This document shows positions 5,886 to 32,313 of a DNA stretch of 32,787 nucleotides, in pieces. The notes beneath the pieces were generated by a model. It had not been told where the DNA came from. It did not search any database and saw only the letters and a program-made list of their open reading frames with translations. Position numbers and translations under genes: made by a program. This DNA is from Gallionellaceae bacterium (GTDB lineage Bacteria; Pseudomonadota; Gammaproteobacteria; Burkholderiales; Gallionellaceae). Each line of letters begins with the position of its first letter. The first letter of the stretch is position 1. The DNA is taken from the NCBI GenBank assembly GCA_006218055.1, contig VBWD01000026.1:1-32787 (forward strand). Direction: 5' to 3'.

Positions 5886-6662
5886 TTAGCCGAAACGCCC
5901 AGTGATGTAGTCTTCAGTCTCTTTACGTTTCGGATTAGTGAATACGGTGCTGGTGTCGCCGAATTCGATGAGGTCGCCCAGATACATGTAGGCGGTAAAG
6001 TCGGAGATACGTGCCGCCTGTTGCATGTTGTGGGTGACGATAACGATGGTGAAATCTTTCTTCAACTCATCAATGAGCTTCTCTATATGTGCAGTGGAGA
6101 TAGGGTCGAGTGCAGAGGTTGGCTCGTCCAGTAACAGTACCTGCGGTTTTACAGCGATAGCGCGAGCGATACACAGACGTTGTTGTTGTCCGCCAGACAG
6201 GCCCGTTCCGCTCTGTTTCAGTTTGTCTTTGACCTCACCCCACAGTGCTGCTTTCTTCAGTGCCCATTCGACGCGCTCGTCCATCTCGTTGCGATTAAGG
6301 TTTTCGTAGAGTTTTACGCCAAACGTGATGTTGTCGTAGATGGACATCGGAAATGGGGTCGGTTTTTGAAACACCATGCCGATCTTGGCACGCAGTGTGT
6401 TCAGGTCTTGTTTCTTGTCTAGCAGGTTCTGACCATCCAGTAGCACTTCTCCTGTAGCACGCTGATTGGGATAGAGCTGGTACATGCGGTTGAAGGTGCG
6501 TAGCAGCGTGGATTTCCCGCAGCCAGAGGGGCCGATGAAGGCAGTGACCATCTTTTCCGGGATAGTCAGATTGATGTCTTTGAGCGCGCGATCTTTTCCA
6601 TAGAAAAAGTTGAGATCGCGCACGATCATCTTGGGTGTGGTGGTGATGGTTTCGACGGTCAT
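5886..6662 (-). CDS. pstB: Phosphate ABC transporter ATP-binding protein PstB
   Basis: This 258-residue ABC ATPase has Walker [10 protein letters not shown] (44–52), Q-loop [14 protein letters not shown] (98–111, the PstB-type sequence), signature LSGGQQQR (155–162), Walker B LLLDEP (176–181) and the switch histidine H211. These are PstB features rather than those of a general ABC protein. It powers high-affinity phosphate uptake through PstC and PstA. The ATG at 6662 has AAGGAC upstream. It is the last gene of the minus-strand pst operon, and no phoU follows: the next gene is the converging glmM. Confidence 0.97.
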
Positions 6663-6674
6663 TGCTATTCGTCC

Positions 6675-7529
6675 TTAGTGACTGTTTGGATTTTGGCGGA
6701 ACAAGATTCGCGCCACGATATTGAGTGTCAGTACGCTCATGGTGATGAGTAGTGCGCCAGCCCATGCCAGACTTTGCCAGTCTGCGTAGGGGCTCATGGC
6801 GAACTGGAAGATGACCACTGGCAAGTTGGCCATCGGCTGATTCATATTGGTGCTCCAGAACTGGTTGTTCAGTGCGGTGAATAGGAGTGGGGCAGTCTCA
6901 CCGCTGATGCGGGCGACGGCCAGCAGCACACCCGTCAATATCCCTGCACGGGCCGCACGCAGGGTGACGAAGTTGATGATCTTCCATTGTGGCGTTCCCA
7001 GCGCGGCAGCGGCTTCGCGCAGGCTGTTGGGGATGAGACGCAGCATGTTTTCGGTTGTGCGAATCACCACGGGGATAACTAGGATCGAGAGTGCCAAGGT
7101 GCCGCCCCAGCCAGAGAAATGGCCGACCTTGACGACATAGATTTCGTACACAAACAATCCGATGACGATAGAGGGCGCAGACAGCAAAACGTCATTGATG
7201 AAACGCGTGACGGGGGCAAGCCAACCTCGTTGTCCGAATTCGGCGAGGTAGGTGCCTGCCAAGATTCCGATGGGGGTGCCGATGAAGGTGGCGATGACGA
7301 CCATCATCACGCTGCCGAAGATGGCATTGATCAAGCCCCCACTACTGCCTGGAGGTGGGGTGGTTTGCGTGAATACATGCATGCCTAAGCCGGGCAGGCC
7401 ATGCTCAAGCAGTGTCCATAGAATCCAACCTAGCCAGAACAAACCAAACAACATGGCGAGTACGGAGACCCCCAAGCCGATGGAGTTGATGATGCGGCGG
7501 CGCAAATAGAGATCGAACATATCAGGCAC
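6675..7529 (-). CDS. pstA: Phosphate ABC transporter permease PstA
   Basis: The 284-residue membrane protein has about six hydrophobic segments and the EAA-like cytoplasmic loop [15 protein letters not shown], which docks the ATPase. A substrate-path motif [13 protein letters not shown] is also present. It forms the inner-membrane phosphate channel with PstC. I chose the GTG at 7529, eight bases inside pstC and behind an AAGGG stretch. An ATG at 7520 (MFDLYLRRR) is a reasonable alternative. The pst order S-C-A-B confirms the assignment. Confidence 0.95.
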
Positions 7530-8484
7530 CGTGCCCTTCGCGTTTTTGCAATTTATGCAGCATGAGGCGAGCGAGCGAAAGCACCACGAAGGTGATGAAG
7601 AACAAGATTAAGCCAAGCTCGATGAGGGATGAGGTGTATAGCTCGCCCACGGCCTCGGCGAATTCGTTGGCCAGTGCGGAGGAGATGCTGTTGCCAGGCA
7701 TCAATAGTGATTGGCTCAGTTCATGCGCATTGCCAATGACGAAGGTGACCGCCATAGTCTCACCCAGTGCGCGTCCCAGCCCCAGCATGATGCCTCCGAC
7801 GACGCCGATTTTTGTATAGGGCAACACGATATTCATCATCACTTCCCATGTGGTCGCACCCAATCCATAGGCGGATTCTTTGAGCATGGTAGGGACGACA
7901 TCAAACACATCTCGCATCACTGAGGCGATGAAAGGAATGACCATGATGGCTAGGATGATGCCAGCGGTCAGCATGCCGATTCCCATCGGTGGGCCGGAGA
8001 AGAAGGGGCCGATGAAGGGCCATGTGCCGATATGGTCGTTCAGCCACGGTTCCACATGGTCTGCAAACAAGGGGGCGAAGACGAACAACCCCCACATGCC
8101 GTAGATGATGCTGGGAATGCCTGCCAGCAATTCGATAGCGATACCCAAGGGGCGCCTCAACCAACCAGGTGATAGCTCGGTCAGGAAAATGGCAATGCCA
8201 AGGCTGACCGGGATTGCGATTAATAGCGCAATCCCTGAGGTGATCAGGGTGCCGACGATGGGGATGAGTGCGCCATATTGGTCGTTGACTGGATCCCATT
8301 CAGGACTGGTGATAAAGCCAAATCCGAACGCGTGGATAGCAGGCATGCTACCCACGACCAAAGAAGCGATGATGGCGGCGAGCAATGCAAGTACCGAAAA
8401 TGCGGCGATGCGTGTCAGGTTACGGAACGATGCATCAAGCACTGTCTGTCGTTTATGTAGCGATTCGCGGAGTAAATTCGGCAT
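7522..8484 (-). CDS. pstC: Phosphate ABC transporter permease PstC
   Basis: The 320-residue protein has about six membrane segments, a long N-terminal cytoplasmic stretch before the first, and the conserved permease loop [15 protein letters not shown] followed by [16 protein letters not shown], typical of PstC. It is the second permease subunit of the Pst system. The gene starts 72 bases after pstS, with a hairpin in the gap, and its end overlaps pstA by eight bases. No clear Shine-Dalgarno sequence precedes the ATG at 8484, which could lower its translation relative to pstS. Confidence 0.95.
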
Positions 8485-8510
8485 GTTCGGGTCGATTGTT
8501 TATAAATGAT

Positions 8511-8533
8511 GCGGAGGGCCTAAGCGCCCCCGC
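8511..8533 (-). promoter_or_regulatory. Hairpin in the pstS–pstC gap
   Basis: A GC-rich stem of eight pairs with one bulged A lies just after the pstS stop and is not followed by a T-run on the minus strand. A hairpin here would stabilise the 3' end of a pstS-only message or partly stop transcription, giving more binding protein than permease. That role is inferred from position. Confidence 0.45.
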
Positions 8534-8556
8534 GATTGTAACTTAATACACGCAAT

Positions 8557-9603
8557 CTACTTCCACAGGGCTTTGCCGGAGCTGTCTTTCACTTGCTCTT
8601 TCCAGGCATCGTGGATGGTGGCTTTCAACTTGGCTGGCAGGGGCACGTAGTCGAGGTCGGATGCCATCTTGTCGCCATTGGCGTAAGCCCAGTCGAAGAA
8701 CTTGAGTACTTCTTTGGCGTTCTCGATCTTCTCGGGAGATTTTGGGATCAATACGAAAGTCGCGCCGGTGATTGGCCAGCTAGCTTTGCCTGGTTCGTTG
8801 GTCAGAATCTCGTAGAAGCCATTGTTCTTATCCCATTTTGCGTTCGCGGCCGCAGCCTTGAAGCTGTCGTCGTTCGGCTTAACGAATTGGCCATCACGGT
8901 TCTTCAGTTGCACGAAATTCATCTTGTTCTGCAGGGCGTAAGCGTACTCGACATAGCCGATGGAATTTTTAATGGTCTGCACGAAGGAAGCTACCCCTTC
9001 ATTGCCTTTGCCGCCGGTACCGACTGGCCATTTCACCGCCTTGTCCGCCCCAACATCGGTTTTCCATGAGGTGCTGACTTGCGCAAGGTAGGTTGTGAAG
9101 ATGAAGGTGGTGCCCGAGCCGTCGGCACGATGTACGACAGTGATCGTTTTGTCAGGCAGGGAGAGGCCAGCGTTGTCGGCGACGATGCGCGAATCATTCC
9201 ATTTTGTGATCTTGCCCTGGTAGATGTCGGCTAATACTTGACTAGTCAGCTTCAGTGTTCCAGTCGAGACACTCTCAAGATTGACGACAGGAACAACCCC
9301 GCCGATGACGGTCGGGAATTGGGTGAGGCCATTTTTTGCGAGCTCTTCTGGGTGCAATGGGGCGTCAGAAGCGCCGAAGTCAACCGTCTTGGCTTGAATC
9401 TGTTTGATGCCGCCGCCAGAACCTATGGATTGATAGTTCATGCCCGCGCCAGTCTGAGCCTTGTATGCCTCAGCCCATTTCGCATAGATAGGGTAGGGAA
9501 ATGTCGCGCCAGCGCCAGTGATGTCAGTCGCCAATGCAGTGGTAGATACCGCTAAAACTGCTGACAGTGTCGCGATTCGTAGAATCGAATTCATCTTACT
9601 CAT
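8557..9603 (-). CDS. pstS: Periplasmic phosphate-binding protein PstS
   Basis: With the ATG at 9603 the protein is 348 residues. A Sec signal peptide runs to about residue 25 (hydrophobic core, then STTALA before TDITGAG). The mature start ITGAGATFPYPIYAKW, the segment YQSIGSGGGIKQI, the SDAPL motif and HRADGSGTTFIFTTYL are the phosphate-binding elements of PstS. It captures phosphate in the periplasm for PstCAB. The open frame extends to 9672, but GGAGG lies about ten bases before 9603 and the signal peptide fits that start. It is the first gene of the pst operon and faces away from tpiA. Confidence 0.97.
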   Translation of the reverse strand: MSKMNSILRIATLSAVLAVSTTALATDITGAGATFPYPIYAKWAEAYKAQTGAGMNYQSIGSGGGIKQIQAKTVDFGASDAPLHPEELAKNGLTQFPTVIGGVVPVVNLESVSTGTLKLTSQVLADIYQGKITKWNDSRIVADNAGLSLPDKTITVVHRADGSGTTFIFTTYLAQVSTSWKTDVGADKAVKWPVGTGGKGNEGVASFVQTIKNSIGYVEYAYALQNKMNFVQLKNRDGQFVKPNDDSFKAAAANAKWDKNNGFYEILTNEPGKASWPITGATFVLIPKSPEKIENAKEVLKFFDWAYANGDKMASDLDYVPLPAKLKATIHDAWKEQVKDSSGKALWK

Positions 9604-26226: not shown

Positions 26227-27444
26227 ATGGAAGAGTTGAAATTTAGCAATGACGTTTTATTCGTTTTGTTAGGCGCCATCATGGTGCTGGCAATGCACGC
26301 AGGGTTCGCATTCCTCGAACTGGGTACGGTGCGCAAGAAGAACCAAGTGAATGCCTTGGTGAAGATACTGAGTGACCTAGCCGTTTCTACATTGGCCTAT
26401 TTTTTCATCGGTTACAGCATCGCTTATGGCGTCAATTTCTTTGTGGGGGCAGAGCAGCTCGCTCAGAAGAACGGCTATGACCTCGTCAAATTCTTCTTCC
26501 TGATGACCTTCGCGGCAGCTATCCCAGCCATCGTTTCGGGCGGTATCGCAGAGCGTGCGAGATTCAACCCACAACTCGCCGCTACTTTCCTGCTGGTCGG
26601 ATTCGTCTATCCCTTCTTCGAGGGTATCGCTTGGAACAATCACTACGGCATCCAAGATTGGTTGAAGACGACCTTCGGTGCGGGTTTCCATGACTTCGCT
26701 GGATCGGTCGTCGTGCATGCGGTGGGCGGTTGGATCGGCTTGGCAGCCGTATTGTTGCTCGGCGCGCGGCGTGGTCGCTACAACAAAGAAGGCCGTATCT
26801 CTGCGCATCCACCTTCCAGCATCCCATTCTTGGCGCTTGGCGCTTGGATCCTAACGGTGGGTTGGTTCGGCTTCAACGTCATGTCAGCCCAGACCATCAC
26901 CGGCATCAGCGGCCTCGTCGCGGTGAATTCATTGATGGCCATGGTGGGCGGTACGCTCACTGCACTGTGGTTGGGTAAGAACGACCCCGGCTTCGTGCAT
27001 AACGGCCCACTCGCAGGATTAGTCGCCGTCTGCGCTGGTTCGGATGTGTTCCATCCAGTCGGTGCGCTCATCGTTGGCGGTGTTGCTGGCGCGCTGTTCG
27101 TTGTTATGTTCACACTCACCCAGAACCGCTGGAAGATAGACGATGTACTCGGTGTGTGGCCGTTACATGGTTTGTGCGGTGCTTGGGGAGGTATCGCTGT
27201 GGGTATTTTCGGTGCACAAGCACTGGGCGGCACCGGCGGTCTAGCCTTCGGGGGCATCAGCTTCATGTCGCAACTTATCGGCACACTGATGGGTGTAGGG
27301 ATCGCCCTTGGAGGCGGTTTCATCGTGTACGGATTGTTGAAGCGATTTGTCGGAATCCGTCTTGATGCAGAAGAAGAATTCAACGGTGCCGACCTCTCAA
27401 TCCATAAGATCACCGCTACGCCAGAGCGCGAATCAGGCTGGTAG
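26227..27444 (+). CDS. amtB: Ammonium transporter (Amt family)
   Basis: The 405-residue protein has about eleven membrane helices. The Amt pore residues are present: D156 in the DFAGS motif and the twin histidines H164 (VVVHAVGGW) and H314 (WPLHGLCGAWGG) that carry deprotonated ammonium. It has no signal peptide, and its C-terminal tail (from about 380, EEEFNGADLSIHKI) differs from the usual PII-contact sequence, so it belongs to a less common Amt branch. AGGAG precedes the ATG. No glnK gene is adjacent, although amtB is usually paired with one. NtrC and sigma-54 sites upstream point to induction by nitrogen shortage. Confidence 0.93.
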   Translation: MEELKFSNDVLFVLLGAIMVLAMHAGFAFLELGTVRKKNQVNALVKILSDLAVSTLAYFFIGYSIAYGVNFFVGAEQLAQKNGYDLVKFFFLMTFAAAIPAIVSGGIAERARFNPQLAATFLLVGFVYPFFEGIAWNNHYGIQDWLKTTFGAGFHDFAGSVVVHAVGGWIGLAAVLLLGARRGRYNKEGRISAHPPSSIPFLALGAWILTVGWFGFNVMSAQTITGISGLVAVNSLMAMVGGTLTALWLGKNDPGFVHNGPLAGLVAVCAGSDVFHPVGALIVGGVAGALFVVMFTLTQNRWKIDDVLGVWPLHGLCGAWGGIAVGIFGAQALGGTGGLAFGGISFMSQLIGTLMGVGIALGGGFIVYGLLKRFVGIRLDAEEEFNGADLSIHKITATPERESGW

Positions 27445-27500
27445 TTTCTGGTGTGTGTTTCGTGACAATAAAGTCTTGAACAGTTGTAATCGGAACTAAT

Positions 27501-27536
27501 GGTAGGCAACCTGCTGAGGTGGCAGCGTTGCCTACC
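27501..27536. repeat. Hairpin after amtB
   Basis: A 10-bp perfect outer stem (GGTAGGCAAC / GTTGCCTACC) encloses a 4-bp inner stem (CTGC / GCAG) with a bulge. It is not followed by a T-run. It may end or protect the amtB message, or mark the left side of the accessory segment. Confidence 0.6.
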
Positions 27537-27566
27537 AATAAGTACATCTCAAATACTGCGTGGCAT

Positions 27567-27630
27567 ACTCACGAATCCCTGTTACTTCAGGATATCGATG
27601 ATCTCAGTGATGACGCCCGGATCGTTGATA
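27567..27630 (-). pseudogene. Decayed fragment of the prpE 3' end
   Basis: Over 60 bases (27570–27629) this matches the intact prpE end (30395–30454) at 53 positions, counted by hand, in the same orientation. Read on the minus strand it gives INDPGVITEIIDILK, then a TAA where prpE has CAA, then QGFV. In prpE the same place reads IDDPGVIPEIIDILKQQGFVK. The similarity fades upstream, so only the terminus is present. It cannot work as a gene. It forms a direct repeat with the true prpE end on either side of the lipoprotein operon. Confidence 0.85.
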
Positions 27631-27798
27631 CGATGTGGGCGATCCACAATTAGGTCAGCGTCACTGGCAAGATCCTATTGTTGGCTCAGGCGGCATTCAT
27701 TTTGGAAATCCCTCTTACTTCCACCAATCTGAAATATGTTGGTGTGAGTTACCTGAATCGTTAATTAATCTCGCCCTACCATACGTATGGTCTTAATG

Positions 27799-27846
27799 AT
27801 ATATGCCGGAATGCATAGGCCTAGATATAGGCCAACAGGCATATAT
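27799..27846. repeat. Nested inverted repeat upstream of the lipoprotein operon
   Basis: The outer arms ATATATGCC (27799–27807) and GGCATATAT (27838–27846) enclose a second perfect hairpin, GGCCTA–GATA–TAGGCC (27818–27833). A 10-base palindrome CATACGTATG lies just before it at 27780–27789. The function is unknown. The region could be part of the operon's control region or a remnant of an insertion end. Confidence 0.6.
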
Positions 27847-27888
27847 GTTTATCTTCAGATGTAGCGTACAACCCTAATCGGTCATAGA

Positions 27889-27906
27889 AAAACGAAATTT
27901 CGTTTT
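27889..27906. promoter_or_regulatory. 18-bp palindrome, possible operator
   Basis: AAAACGAAATTTCGTTTT is a perfect palindrome 44 bases before the first lipoprotein gene. A further copy of the half-site TTTTCGTTT occurs at about 27917–27925. Position and symmetry suit a repressor or activator site, but no regulator is encoded nearby. Confidence 0.45.
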
Positions 27907-27949
27907 CTTTGAGCCATTTTCGTTTGGAGTTCACTTCTGGAGGCTGTTC

Positions 27950-28930
27950 ATGCTGTTCTTCTCTTCCCATTCAAAATCCACCATAACAATATTGGCTGCA
28001 TCATTAGGGCTCTTTGGTTGCGCAGTCACCGATAAGCCCAAGCAAGAAGTAGAAGTACCCGTCTCGCGCCAGCAACAAATCGAAGCTCAGAAAGTGGCCA
28101 TTCAAGTCGAAGAGAAAACCTTGAAGCGCAAGGTAGCTATAGGACGCTTCACAAACGAGACTAATTACGGAAAGACATTTCAAGTTGATGAAAATTCGGA
28201 CCCCTTGGGTAAGCAAGCATCAGATATGTTGGCAAGCCGATTGGTGGCATCCAACAAGTTTTTAGTATTTGAGCGCCAAGATGCAAGCAAGATTAAGGCT
28301 GAACAGGCAATACTGAAAGAGGGAGAATTGATTGGAGTTGATGCTCTGATTCTTGGCTCGGTTACCGAATTCGGTCGCGGCACAACTGGCAAGTCAGGTT
28401 TCCTAAGTGCGACAAAGATTCAAACTGCTCGAGCGAAAGTCGAAGTTAGGCTGGTTGATGCGAGAACCGGTTACTCGTTCTTCTCAGCATCTGGCACAGG
28501 CGAGGCAAGCACACAGTCTGGTGAAGTGGCTGGCTACGGCAGCAAAGCTGACTACGATGGATCGTTAAACGACAGAGCTATCGGTGCCGCCATATCAGAC
28601 CTACAAGTTGCGCTAATGACCAAACTCCAAGAGCGTCCATGGAGAACTGACATTCTGAAGGTATCCGGTAATCAACTCATTATCTCTGGTGGGCAACGCC
28701 AAGGAATAAAGGTCGGTGATCATCTTTCAGTCATGACTCAGGGAGAAACAGTTAAAAGTGGCCAAACAGGTTTTTCTATAACACTTCCCCCAACAGAAAT
28801 TGGCAAAGCAAAAGTTATCAGTAGCTTCGGTGATAACGAAAGCAACGAAGGGTCGATTGCCGAACTAGTATCTGGGAAAGCCTCTTCCACAAACGGTAGC
28901 GTTGTATTTATCAGTGAATCCAAGGAATGA
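27950..28930 (+). CDS. CsgG/HfaB-family outer-membrane lipoprotein
   Basis: The 326-residue protein has a lipoprotein signal with lipobox LFGC (C24); alanine at the next position favours the outer membrane. The body (about 55–230) is CsgG-like, with KRKVAIGRFTNETNYGK, LASRLVASNKFLVFERQD, GVDALILGSVTEFGRG and VEVRLVDARTGYSFFSASG. Known CsgG forms an oligomeric outer-membrane channel for curli subunits, but curli genes are absent here, so a different cargo or a scaffold role is more likely. The C-terminal part (about 240–326) is an extra small beta-rich domain. CTGGAGG precedes the ATG. It is first in a run of four lipoprotein genes. Confidence 0.85.
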   Translation: MLFFSSHSKSTITILAASLGLFGCAVTDKPKQEVEVPVSRQQQIEAQKVAIQVEEKTLKRKVAIGRFTNETNYGKTFQVDENSDPLGKQASDMLASRLVASNKFLVFERQDASKIKAEQAILKEGELIGVDALILGSVTEFGRGTTGKSGFLSATKIQTARAKVEVRLVDARTGYSFFSASGTGEASTQSGEVAGYGSKADYDGSLNDRAIGAAISDLQVALMTKLQERPWRTDILKVSGNQLIISGGQRQGIKVGDHLSVMTQGETVKSGQTGFSITLPPTEIGKAKVISSFGDNESNEGSIAELVSGKASSTNGSVVFISESKE

Positions 28931-28934
28931 CATC

Positions 28935-29246
28935 ATGAAAATTATTCTCTCAATATTTGTTGCGCTAACACTTACAGCATGCGCACTCCCCGAGACAGGT
29001 GTTCGTACTGGCTCGCCCAGGCCAACTCTCTATATAAAGGGTGATGTCAAAGGCATGGATCTTTATATTGATGGCATACAGATTGGCTTAGCCGAACAGT
29101 TTGATGGCAACCCTAAGGTGCTTGTTGTAGAAGAAGGCGCTCACATCGTTCAAATCAAGAAAGCTGGCTCAGTGGTGCATTCTGAAAAAACTTTTGTAAG
29201 TAATGGCGAGTCACGAGCCATCACTGTGAATGCAGGAGCTAAATGA
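28935..29246 (+). CDS. Small lipoprotein with a PEGA-like domain
   Basis: From ATG 28935 the protein is 103 residues. The lipobox LTAC places the lipidated cysteine at C16. The rest resembles a PEGA-type beta domain, with the pattern DLYIDGIQIG, then VEEGAHIVQIKKAG and a final SRAITV strand. PEGA-like domains are found on bacterial surface proteins, and the function here is unknown. AAGGA lies nine bases before the ATG. It begins four bases after the CsgG-like stop and its own stop overlaps the next start by four bases. I do not recall it as a fixed part of the related CsgG–DUF4810–DUF799 clusters, so it may be an addition. Confidence 0.75.
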   Translation: MKIILSIFVALTLTACALPETGVRTGSPRPTLYIKGDVKGMDLYIDGIQIGLAEQFDGNPKVLVVEEGAHIVQIKKAGSVVHSEKTFVSNGESRAITVNAGAK

Positions 29247-29608
29247 TGCGTACCTACTTACCTTTATTGCTTCTAACACTGATGGGCCTAACGGGTTGTG
29301 TTGCACCGACCAAATATGATTGGGGAAGTTATGAGTCTTCTTTGTATTCTTATTACAAAGACCCAGCAAAGATTGCCGAACTGTCTAAATCACTTGCAGA
29401 CACGATCAGCACCGCAGAGAAGTCGAATAAGCCAGTGCCTCCAGGCGTATACGCGGAGTATGGATTCATATTGCATCAACAAGGAAAATCAAGTGAAGCA
29501 TTACTTTTTTTCGAAAAAGAAAAGAGCAAATGGCCTGAATCTTCTACCTTGATGGATTCAATGATCCAAATGGCATCCAGATCCAATAAATCGGTGAAAC
29601 CACTATGA
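29243..29608 (+). CDS. DUF4810-family lipoprotein
   Basis: The 121-residue protein has lipobox LTGC (C19). Its body shows the DUF4810 pattern: KYDWGSYESSLYSYYKDP, then VPPGVYAEYGFILHQQGKSSEALLFFEKEKSKWPES, a tetratricopeptide-like helix pair. The function of DUF4810 is not known to me. It usually sits between CsgG-like and DUF799 lipoproteins, as here. The ATG at 29243 (or 29246) overlaps the previous stop, and the stop overlaps the next start by four bases, so it is probably translated by coupling. Confidence 0.84.
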   Translation: MMRTYLPLLLLTLMGLTGCVAPTKYDWGSYESSLYSYYKDPAKIAELSKSLADTISTAEKSNKPVPPGVYAEYGFILHQQGKSSEALLFFEKEKSKWPESSTLMDSMIQMASRSNKSVKPL

Positions 29609-30267
29609 ACGCCCGTATTCAGATTGCAAGTCTGGCCTTAGTTAGTTTGCTCTTGGGCGGCTGTGCCACCCCTCCCAACAAGCCTAATTACACTCAATTC
29701 AGAACGGAGAATCCCCGTTCAGTTCTAATTGTTCCAACAGTTAATCGAAGTGTTGATGTCGACGCACCTGATTATTTCTTAGCAACGATTTCTAGACCTA
29801 TTGCTGAACGCGGCTACTACGTCTTTCCAGTTCATCTCGTTAAGTCTGTGATGGAAGAAAGTGGACTGAATGATGCAAACATGGTTCATAGCAATGATCC
29901 GACTCGGCTCGGGAAGTTGTTCAATACCGATTCAATCATGTACATCACAATCGAGCGGTGGGACGCTAGATACGCAGTGCTATCTACAACCACCACTGTT
30001 GAATTGACTTACGTACTCAAGAGCGCAAAGACAGGCGAAACTCTTTGGAATAATCATCAAACAATTGTCTATCAGCCCCAGCAAAATAATTCGAATGGTA
30101 TCGCAGGTCTAATTGCAAGTGCGGTTGTCGCCGCAATGCAAAAAGCGGCACCCAATTACATTCCACTGGCGCAGCAAGCGAATAATCAGGCAGTGAATAC
30201 AAGAGGACTAGGCGTGCCTGCTGGTCCCTACGATTCTCATTACTTGAAAGATCAGTCTGAGTTCTAG
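29605..30267 (+). CDS. DUF799 (GNA1162-like) lipoprotein
   Basis: The 220-residue protein has lipobox LGGC (C20). It matches the DUF799 family, with PRSVLIVPTVNRSVDVDAPDYF, ISRPIAERGYYVFPVHLV, LGKLFNTDSIMYITIERWD and ETLWNNHQTIVY. The Neisseria member, GNA1162, is a surface-associated lipoprotein from a similar gene neighbourhood. This one probably forms an envelope complex with the CsgG-like and DUF4810 proteins (inference from their conserved linkage). It is the last gene, and a strong terminator follows. Confidence 0.87.
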   Translation: MNARIQIASLALVSLLLGGCATPPNKPNYTQFRTENPRSVLIVPTVNRSVDVDAPDYFLATISRPIAERGYYVFPVHLVKSVMEESGLNDANMVHSNDPTRLGKLFNTDSIMYITIERWDARYAVLSTTTTVELTYVLKSAKTGETLWNNHQTIVYQPQQNNSNGIAGLIASAVVAAMQKAAPNYIPLAQQANNQAVNTRGLGVPAGPYDSHYLKDQSEF

Positions 30268-30333
30268 TGTGAGATAGCAAAGTCGGTTTTGAGAATTAGC
30301 CGATGCGGTTCTTCAATGCCGCGTTCTGGGGAT

Positions 30334-30377
30334 CCAAAGTAAAAAGGCTCACATCACTGTGAGCCTTTTTACTTTGG
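30334..30377. terminator. Bidirectional intrinsic terminator between the lipoprotein operon and prpE
   Basis: A perfect 20-bp stem with loop TCAC, A-rich in the left arm and T-rich in the right arm, so it serves both converging transcripts. It sits 66 bases after the DUF799 stop and 11 bases from the prpE stop. Confidence 0.95.
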
Positions 30378-30388
30378 CGAACTACGCC

Positions 30389-32278
30389 TTACTTCACGAA
30401 ACCCTGTTGCTTCAGGATGTCGATGATCTCAGGAATGACGCCCGGATCGTCAATGGTGGAGGGCACTTGATACTCTTGGCCGTTAACGATCTTGTTCAGT
30501 GTCTTACGCAAGGTCTTGCCGGAGCGCGTTTTGGGTAGACGTTTCAGGATGACGGTGTCCTTGTAGCAGGTGATGGCACCGATGGCTTCCCTCACACGAT
30601 TGACCAGTTCCTTTTGCAAGACTGCATCGTCAATCGTTACGCCAGACTTCAGCACCACCAAACCCATCGGCACCTGCCCCTTCAGGTCGTCGTCGCGCGC
30701 GATGACGGCACATTCCGCAACGGCGGGATGGCCTGCCACTACTTCTTCGATCTCACCGGTGGAGAGTCGGTGTCCGGCCACGTTGATGACATCGTCCACG
30801 CGCCCCATCACGAACACATAACCCTCGCTGTCGATGTAACCGCCGTCACCGGTGGTGTAGTAGCCGGGCAGGAATTGCAGATAACTCTCACGGAACTTGT
30901 TGTCGTCGCCCCACACGCGATTCATGCATGAGGGAGGCAGCGGCAACTTGATGGCGATGTAGCCTTGCTCGTTGGCCGCCATCTGTTTACCGTTCTCATC
31001 GAGGATGCGCACATCGAAGCCGGGAGTGGGCAGGGTAGAGGAGCCGAGCTTCACGGGCTTGGGTTCCACGCCCCACAGGTTGGCGGTGATGCCCCAGCCC
31101 GTTTCGGTCTGCCACCAGTGGTCCACCACGGTCTTGCCGCTCTTCTCGGTGAGCCATTCTTGTGTCGGGGGATCGAGACGCTCACCGGCGGAGAAGATGA
31201 CTTGCAACTTGCTCAAGTCATATGGCTTCATCAGTAAGGCATCGGGGTCTTCTTTCTTCACGGCTCGGAACGCAGTGGGCGCGGTGAAGAACGATTTCAC
31301 TTTGTATTCCGAGATGAGACGCCACAACGCGCCCGCATCCGGTGTCATGATGGGTTTGCCTTCATACACGATGGTCGTGCAACCTTGCAGCAATGGGCCA
31401 TACACGATGTAAGAGTGACCGACCACCCAACCCACGTCTGACGCAGCCCAGAACACATCACCTGCATCCACGTTGTAGATGGCTTTCATGCTGTACTTCA
31501 ATGCCACGGCATGGCCGCCGTTCTCGCGCACCACGCCTTTAGGTTTTCCCGTCGTGCCTGATGTGTAGAGGATGTACAGCGGGTCGCTGCCTTTCACCGA
31601 TGTGCAACCCACAGCTTTTGATTTTGCCAGCAACGTCGCCCAGTCATGGTCGCGTCCTGCAACGAGTGGTGCGTTGCATTGTGGACGTTGGAACACCACG
31701 CAGCTTTGCGGTTTGTGCTTCGACAAGTCGATGGCCTTGTTGAGCAAAGGCATGTATTCGATGACGCGCTTGATCTCGATGCCGCACGAAGCGGTGAGGA
31801 TGACCTTGGGTGTCGAGTCGTCGATACGCTGTGCCAGCTCAGGTGGTGCGAAACCGCCGAACACTACCGAGTGGATCGCACCCAAACGTGCCACCGCCAA
31901 CATCGAGATGACCGCCTCGGGGATCATCGGCATGTAGATGATGACGCGGTCGCCTTTGACCACGCCCAAGTCAGCCAGCATGCCCGCAGTGCGTGCCACT
32001 TCATCGGTCAGCTCTGAATACGTGTACTTGCGTTTGGTATTGGTGACAGGAGAGTCGTAGATGATCGCCGTTTGATCGCCGCGTCCATTCTTCACGTGAT
32101 AGTCCAGCGCCATGTAGGCCGTGTTCATCTCACCATCAGCGAACCAGTGACCGATACCGTCTGTATCGGTCGTCAGGATCGTCTGCGGAAACTTGGTCCA
32201 CTCCAGCGCTTTGGCTTGGTCACCCCAGAAGCCTTTCGGGTCCTTCATCGAACGGTCGTACTCGGTTTGGTAGCTCAT
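30389..32278 (-). CDS. prpE: Propionate–CoA ligase (propionyl-CoA synthetase)
   Basis: The 629-residue AMP-forming acyl-CoA synthetase carries the ATP-binding loop YTSGTTGKPKGVV (238–250) and the adenylate motif WWQTETGW. The catalytic lysine is K588 in PKTRSGKTLRK, the site that acetylation commonly silences. GVVRENGGHAVAL following the loop is of the PrpE type and separates it from acetyl-CoA synthetase, and prpF upstream agrees. It activates propionate for the methylcitrate cycle. I chose ATG 32278 because GAGGAG lies about eight bases upstream. An in-frame start at 32296 would add MRGVKH. Its 3' end is repeated at 27570–27629. Confidence 0.93.
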   Translation of the reverse strand: MSYQTEYDRSMKDPKGFWGDQAKALEWTKFPQTILTTDTDGIGHWFADGEMNTAYMALDYHVKNGRGDQTAIIYDSPVTNTKRKYTYSELTDEVARTAGMLADLGVVKGDRVIIYMPMIPEAVISMLAVARLGAIHSVVFGGFAPPELAQRIDDSTPKVILTASCGIEIKRVIEYMPLLNKAIDLSKHKPQSCVVFQRPQCNAPLVAGRDHDWATLLAKSKAVGCTSVKGSDPLYILYTSGTTGKPKGVVRENGGHAVALKYSMKAIYNVDAGDVFWAASDVGWVVGHSYIVYGPLLQGCTTIVYEGKPIMTPDAGALWRLISEYKVKSFFTAPTAFRAVKKEDPDALLMKPYDLSKLQVIFSAGERLDPPTQEWLTEKSGKTVVDHWWQTETGWGITANLWGVEPKPVKLGSSTLPTPGFDVRILDENGKQMAANEQGYIAIKLPLPPSCMNRVWGDDNKFRESYLQFLPGYYTTGDGGYIDSEGYVFVMGRVDDVINVAGHRLSTGEIEEVVAGHPAVAECAVIARDDDLKGQVPMGLVVLKSGVTIDDAVLQKELVNRVREAIGAITCYKDTVILKRLPKTRSGKTLRKTLNKIVNGQEYQVPSTIDDPGVIPEIIDILKQQGFVK

Positions 32279-32313
32279 GTGTTTGACTCCTCTCATTTAG
32301 AACTTCGTTCATT

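Follow-up and report, generated by a model that had tools for sequence, protein, structure and literature searches.

Why does the 3' end of prpE occur twice, once on each side of a four-gene lipoprotein operon, in a Gallionellaceae bacterium? The locus lies in a 32,787-nucleotide (nt) stretch of contig VBWD01000026.1 (assembly GCA_006218055.1), here called the window, which is part of contig C10 of the source genome G000 (assembly of 1.66 Mb in 100 contigs, 71% complete; G, C and L numbers are our handles for genomes, contigs and loci). An earlier note had proposed that the operon arrived by insertion at the prpE 3' end or by recombination between strains. The explanation that we favour, with moderate confidence, is that a common operon was acquired horizontally and now lies at a fusion of the amtB and prpE blocks of the chromosome, and that the second prpE end, hereafter the scrap, is a secondary copy. 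The locus is most likely a rearrangement scar and not the footprint of a mobile element. The features on which this explanation rests are the following.

27569..27629, minus strand: prpE scrap; its 61 nt, sharply bounded, repeat the 3' end of the prpE coding sequence but contain a premature stop (CAA to TAA) and lack the prpE terminator.
30394..30454, minus strand: native counterpart of the repeat inside intact prpE, located by sequence comparison.
30389..32296, minus strand: prpE (the name given in the earlier note is kept), with the Pfam families AMP-binding, AMP-binding_C and ACAS_N; first gene of the right-hand block.
30334..30377, no strand assigned: palindrome, ancestral prpE terminator, with perfect 20-bp arms and T runs on both strands, between convergent units.
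26227..27444, plus strand: amtB, ammonium transporter by Pfam; it ends the conserved left-hand block.

The core of the repeat (27569-27625 and 30394-30450) is identical at 52 of 57 positions (91%), and the extended 61 nt at 54 of 61, which corresponds to the 53 of 60 counted in the earlier note and confirms that count. Both copies have the same orientation, one at each side of the lipoprotein block. Searching the G000 genome with 27540-27720 recovered the second copy at E 8.8e-17 and no third significant copy of the prpE end in the 1.66 Mb, the next matches being at most 23 nt long with E ~0.5 or worse. The edges of the scrap are sharp. Neither its upstream similarity to G000 prpE nor its downstream similarity to the prpE 3' flanks of G000 and its congeners G015, G048 and G044 rose above shuffled controls, and in 12 of 12 tests of similarity beyond the 61 nt at least 33 of 200 shuffles equalled the real score. 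Seven differences separate the scrap from G000 prpE: four are synonymous, two change an amino acid and one is the in-frame stop. We take the scrap for a decaying non-coding relic, in agreement with the earlier note. A role as part of another gene was rejected because Pfam returned nothing for its 30-aa frame, even with the threshold at E 10; a structured RNA was likewise rejected, as the scrap folds only slightly more stably than shuffles do (z -1.49; 16 shuffles did as well). Among the prpE loci compared, G000 alone carries such a copy. When G015, G048, G044 and G001 are taken for comparison, four changes in the 61 nt are private to the scrap. At fourfold sites, prpE of G000 differs by 0.28 from that of G044, its nearest relative compared. 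The four changes would be compatible with an origin after the split from G044, as far as so tiny a sample goes.

Which of the two ends is the native one? Alignment of both copies to their homologues, as the earlier note had proposed, did not discriminate by raw identity: G015, G048, G044 and G001 match the scrap at 54, 55, 56 and 54 of 61 positions and the intact end at 57, 57, 56 and 54. The flanks do discriminate. The prpE end, its spacer and the hairpin behind it are orthologous to those of G015 (94% over a 258-nt match), G048 (93%) and G044 (89%), and all three genomes have the terminator palindrome behind prpE without the lipoprotein operon. Because spacer and terminator match the prpE flank of these relatives, the comparison identifies the intact end as native. 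The palindrome had been regarded as the operon's own terminator and the scrap as the displaced original end, and neither assignment survives: the palindrome belongs to prpE, and the original terminator should follow a displaced copy, yet the scrap has neither the orthologous spacer nor a terminator behind 27569. This weakens the displaced-end model. The folding energy of the 44-nt palindrome is about -33 kcal/mol for each strand, as compared with -10 to -11 for shuffles, and the hairpin could thus end both the operon and prpE; we infer a terminator working in both directions. A consensus terminator scanner did not report it, and a structured RNA at this place was rejected, since the sole Rfam match lay far below the gathering score.

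The cassette sits where two conserved blocks meet. The left block (C10 2939-27442) is collinear with G015 contig C8 189001-213571, and the right block (C10 30334-39112, plus pieces up to 54443) runs reversed along G015 contig C15 from 204599. From this collinearity, contig C10 of G000 is identified as a fusion of two blocks conserved elsewhere, with the cassette exactly at the join. The earlier note had expected operon-less strains with prpE close to amtB. Such an arrangement was not encountered: none of the 31 amtB stretches from congeners contained prpE and none of their 18 prpE stretches contained amtB, although several of all these stretches extend less than 1 kb past the gene. In three single-contig genomes the two genes are ~112 kb (G041), ~750 kb (G004) and ~1.3 Mb (G024) apart. 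When the first 2.5 kb behind each gene was compared in stretches reaching at least 800 bases past it, no protein was shared with G000 by any of 27 congeners behind amtB or by any of 25 behind prpE.

Between the amtB block and the native prpE terminator lie the following features.

27501..27536, no strand assigned: strong hairpin between amtB and the scrap, found by folding.
27950..28930, plus strand: CsgG-family lipoprotein (Pfam CsgG).
28935..29246, plus strand: small lipoprotein with no Pfam match, conserved in operons of this type elsewhere.
29246..29608, plus strand: DUF4810 lipoprotein (Pfam DUF4810).
29605..30267, plus strand: GNA1162-like (DUF799) lipoprotein, by Pfam and a sequence match to PDB 4hrv.

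All four reading frames are open and three of the four proteins have a Pfam family, so the complete lipoprotein set described between the two copies stands. The block is foreign in composition. Along the window the G+C content (GC) falls from ~50-60% to 43-49% in the lipoprotein region; the cassette genes have 42-47% GC and 37-43% GC at third codon positions (GC3), whereas the genes that we take to be nuoN and nudix, next to amtB, together with amtB and prpE, have 53-57% GC and 64-74% GC3. A DNA search of 33 congeners (E 0.001, at most eight first-look candidates per genome scored) found no match to the coding part in any of them; noncoding matches, the terminator palindrome aside, were 27-33 nt long and occurred in three congeners. 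Protein relatives were sought in 24 congeners and 16 further genomes, nine congeners (G041-G049) being covered by DNA only, and turned up in G009 and G002 only, at 31-34% identity. These diverged genes sit elsewhere (G009, L110 5040-6613; G002, L111 3534-4151), which suggests separate acquisitions. The evidence supports the cassette as an acquired, lineage-specific block, as had been claimed.

The operon is not peculiar to this lineage. A survey with its last protein against one genome per species (84,980 species) gave 25 loci with 51-70% identity in the GNA1162-like protein; 19 of the 25 carry a name that we presume to be of the Burkholderiales. The order CsgG, small lipoprotein, DUF4810 and GNA1162/DUF799 is identical in 25 of 25, and tblastn (E <= 1e-5) found no relative of prpE or amtB in their flanks, which covered at most ~8 kb per side. 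Because gene order is constant and these neighbours were not detected, the four-lipoprotein operon is recognised, from sequence comparison, as a widespread accessory unit. Several vehicles were considered for it. A phage origin was rejected: 27440-27960 had no match in 50,697 phage records, and the GNA1162-like protein had no relative in viral contigs. A plasmid origin is not indicated, as relatives of this protein (best 65%) occur in only 12 of 72,556 plasmid records, nine of which exceed 1 Mb. Transposon ends were rejected as well, as neither direct nor inverted words common to the two cassette borders were longer than in shuffles.

We infer the following order of events. Foreign DNA with the four-lipoprotein operon would have entered directly behind the native prpE terminator hairpin, and the same or another event would have joined the prpE region to the amtB block. 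During insertion or rearrangement the 61-nt scrap may have been copied from the nearby prpE, either as a short tandem duplication later truncated or as a templated patch (template switching) at the left junction, and it would since have been decaying as noncoding DNA. The perfect prpE palindrome could then stop transcription from both sides. Several points weigh against this explanation. A gene-end copy flanking an acquired block is also what 3'-end integration would leave. The copying mechanism is based on one genome, with no intermediate found, and at 71% completeness in 100 contigs the assembly could, without reads, hold a chimeric contig. The search for integrases (PF00589) listed just two of five G000 matches, and none of those listed lies on contig C10. 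One operon elsewhere, L155 of a Spirochaetes metagenome-assembled genome (operon 6319-8585), is flanked by a direct repeat of 32 nt at 94% identity, with 50 bits against 26.5 for its control, and counts mildly against our explanation. Flanking repeats were compared at 24 of the 25 operon loci (L160 was excluded for its short flank, and L143 offers 492 bases on one side); at the remaining 23 they reached at most 30.1 bits, and flanking direct repeats were rejected as a habit of the operon, since only one of 24 loci stood well above its control.

The competitor that survives best, though we regard it as unlikely, is an integrative element at the prpE 3' end, with the two copies as attL and attR, the integrase lost, and the prpE end and terminator of a relative imported. 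The same-orientation direct repeat at both borders of the acquired block is what such an element would leave, four of the seven differences between the scrap and G000 prpE are synonymous, and there is a precedent in e14, which in Escherichia coli K-12 lies in the icd 3' end with a displaced end of 163 bp (PMC6379469). But terminator and spacer, orthologous to those of congeners, follow the intact end, the scrap matches prpE itself alone among the loci compared, an empty amtB-prpE site was seen in none of the congeneric stretches, and no integrase family occurs among the four cassette proteins; the earlier observation that integrase and transposase are missing from the cassette is borne out, three proteins having other Pfam families and one having none. 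Both the place of the terminator and the synteny contradict most of the attachment-site logic, unless the element imported both end and terminator from a relative. Of the two routes in the earlier note, integration loses ground on these results and recombination fits better.

Slightly less probable still is an origin of the scrap in a congeneric donor, from which homologous recombination between strains would have brought it in together with the cassette; it would then never have been part of the prpE of this lineage. The scrap has ATC at two codons where G000 prpE has ATT, and at one codon a third-base A (GGA in G044, AGA in G001) where G000 has GGT; its identity to G044 (56/61) and G048 (55/61) also slightly exceeds that to G000 prpE (54/61). 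Those sites may, however, just as well have kept an ancestral state or undergone the same synonymous change more than once; the operon was found beside prpE in no congener, and 61 nt are too short to place.

That the two blocks are not truly joined, the contig being an assembly chimera, we consider very improbable: the assembly is fragmented into 100 contigs and strong hairpins flank the cassette on both sides, but prpE (six relatives compared) and amtB (seven compared) have the same nearest relative, G044, so they appear to come from one organism, and no shared repeat able to join contigs falsely was found, because the left hairpin and the cassette are each single-copy in G000.

The rearrangement that we favour would have used a place where related genomes also vary. 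The sequence directly behind the prpE terminator differs among G000, G015, G048 and G044; from their translations we take the open reading frame there to be YidB-like in G015, HD-GYP-like in G048 and HipA-like in G044. These differences imply that new DNA settled repeatedly behind the terminator, and that between G015 and G048 is local, since both have a common gene slightly farther downstream (97%). In the first 2.5 kb behind prpE, a shared protein unites 15 of 26 genomes, including G001 and G020, in one group; G000 and the ten others each stand alone, four of these 11 having less than 1.5 kb of sequence. The genes behind G015 prpE were mostly not found in the 71% complete G000, apart from one 70% match on another contig; at such completeness their absence carries little weight. 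It is conceivable, at very long odds, that the prpE 3' end and terminator form an unreported attachment site for small cargo moved in trans, the lipoprotein operon included, in which case the genes that vary behind prpE from one related species to the next would be further cargo of the same site; the literature searched held no paper combining prpE, genomic island, integrase and direct repeat.

As for the operon itself, the last protein matches the GNA1162 structure 4hrv by sequence at E 1.1e-28 and has a weak, below-cut-off match to LpoB (E 0.0007). A lipobox-like cysteine is visible by eye in all four N-termini (GCAV, ACAL, GCVA and GCAT). Judging from the family names, the products are likely outer-membrane lipoproteins that form a periplasm-facing assembly. 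Inspection by eye shows several small palindromes upstream of the CsgG-like gene (27630-27949), which may be regulator sites. Between 27400 and 30500 the search for consensus sigma-70 promoters gave none, against an average of 4.9 in shuffles. The exact 10-nt arms of the hairpin 27501-27536 occur nowhere else among 34 genomes of the genus.

Behind amtB, G015 has a transfer-messenger RNA (tmRNA) gene at ~60 bases (L077 5633-6002). Its sequence has no match in the other 30 congeneric amtB stretches, and the neighbourhood was dropped as an island clue. In G021, ARAGORN calls a permuted-type tmRNA ~1.3 kb behind amtB (L081 9670-10001). The G000 tmRNA gene is split over two contig ends, C94 (L108 10784-11103) and C77 (L107 10458-10553); as these ends also have a short identical sequence in common, the two contigs are probably neighbours.

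How does the locus compare with known systems? The same four genes in the same order make up the CsgG-DUF4810-GNA1162 (DUF799) operons of Burkholderiales and others; it differs from them in its amtB and prpE flanks and in a GC below that of the neighbouring genes. The operon is widespread, yet DUF799 and DUF4810 are seldom named in the literature searched. Variable intergenic sites between conserved gene blocks are hotspots of insertion and rearrangement, and the different genes behind the prpE terminator in G000, G015, G048 and G044 resemble such sites, marking this place as one that takes up different genes from species to species; the copied scrap of a neighbouring gene, seen in G000 only, sets the locus apart. 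It resembles e14 in icd, also mentioned in PMC4632033, in that accessory DNA lies between two partial copies, in direct orientation, of the 3' end of a metabolic gene, one copy being displaced as a pseudo end (PMC6379469). Unlike there, the cassette has no detected integrase, the native terminator is still with the intact gene, and the flanking amtB and prpE are apart in relatives. A gene-end repeat around foreign genes can thus mimic the footprint of integration, where the terminator position and the synteny of relatives indicate rearrangement.

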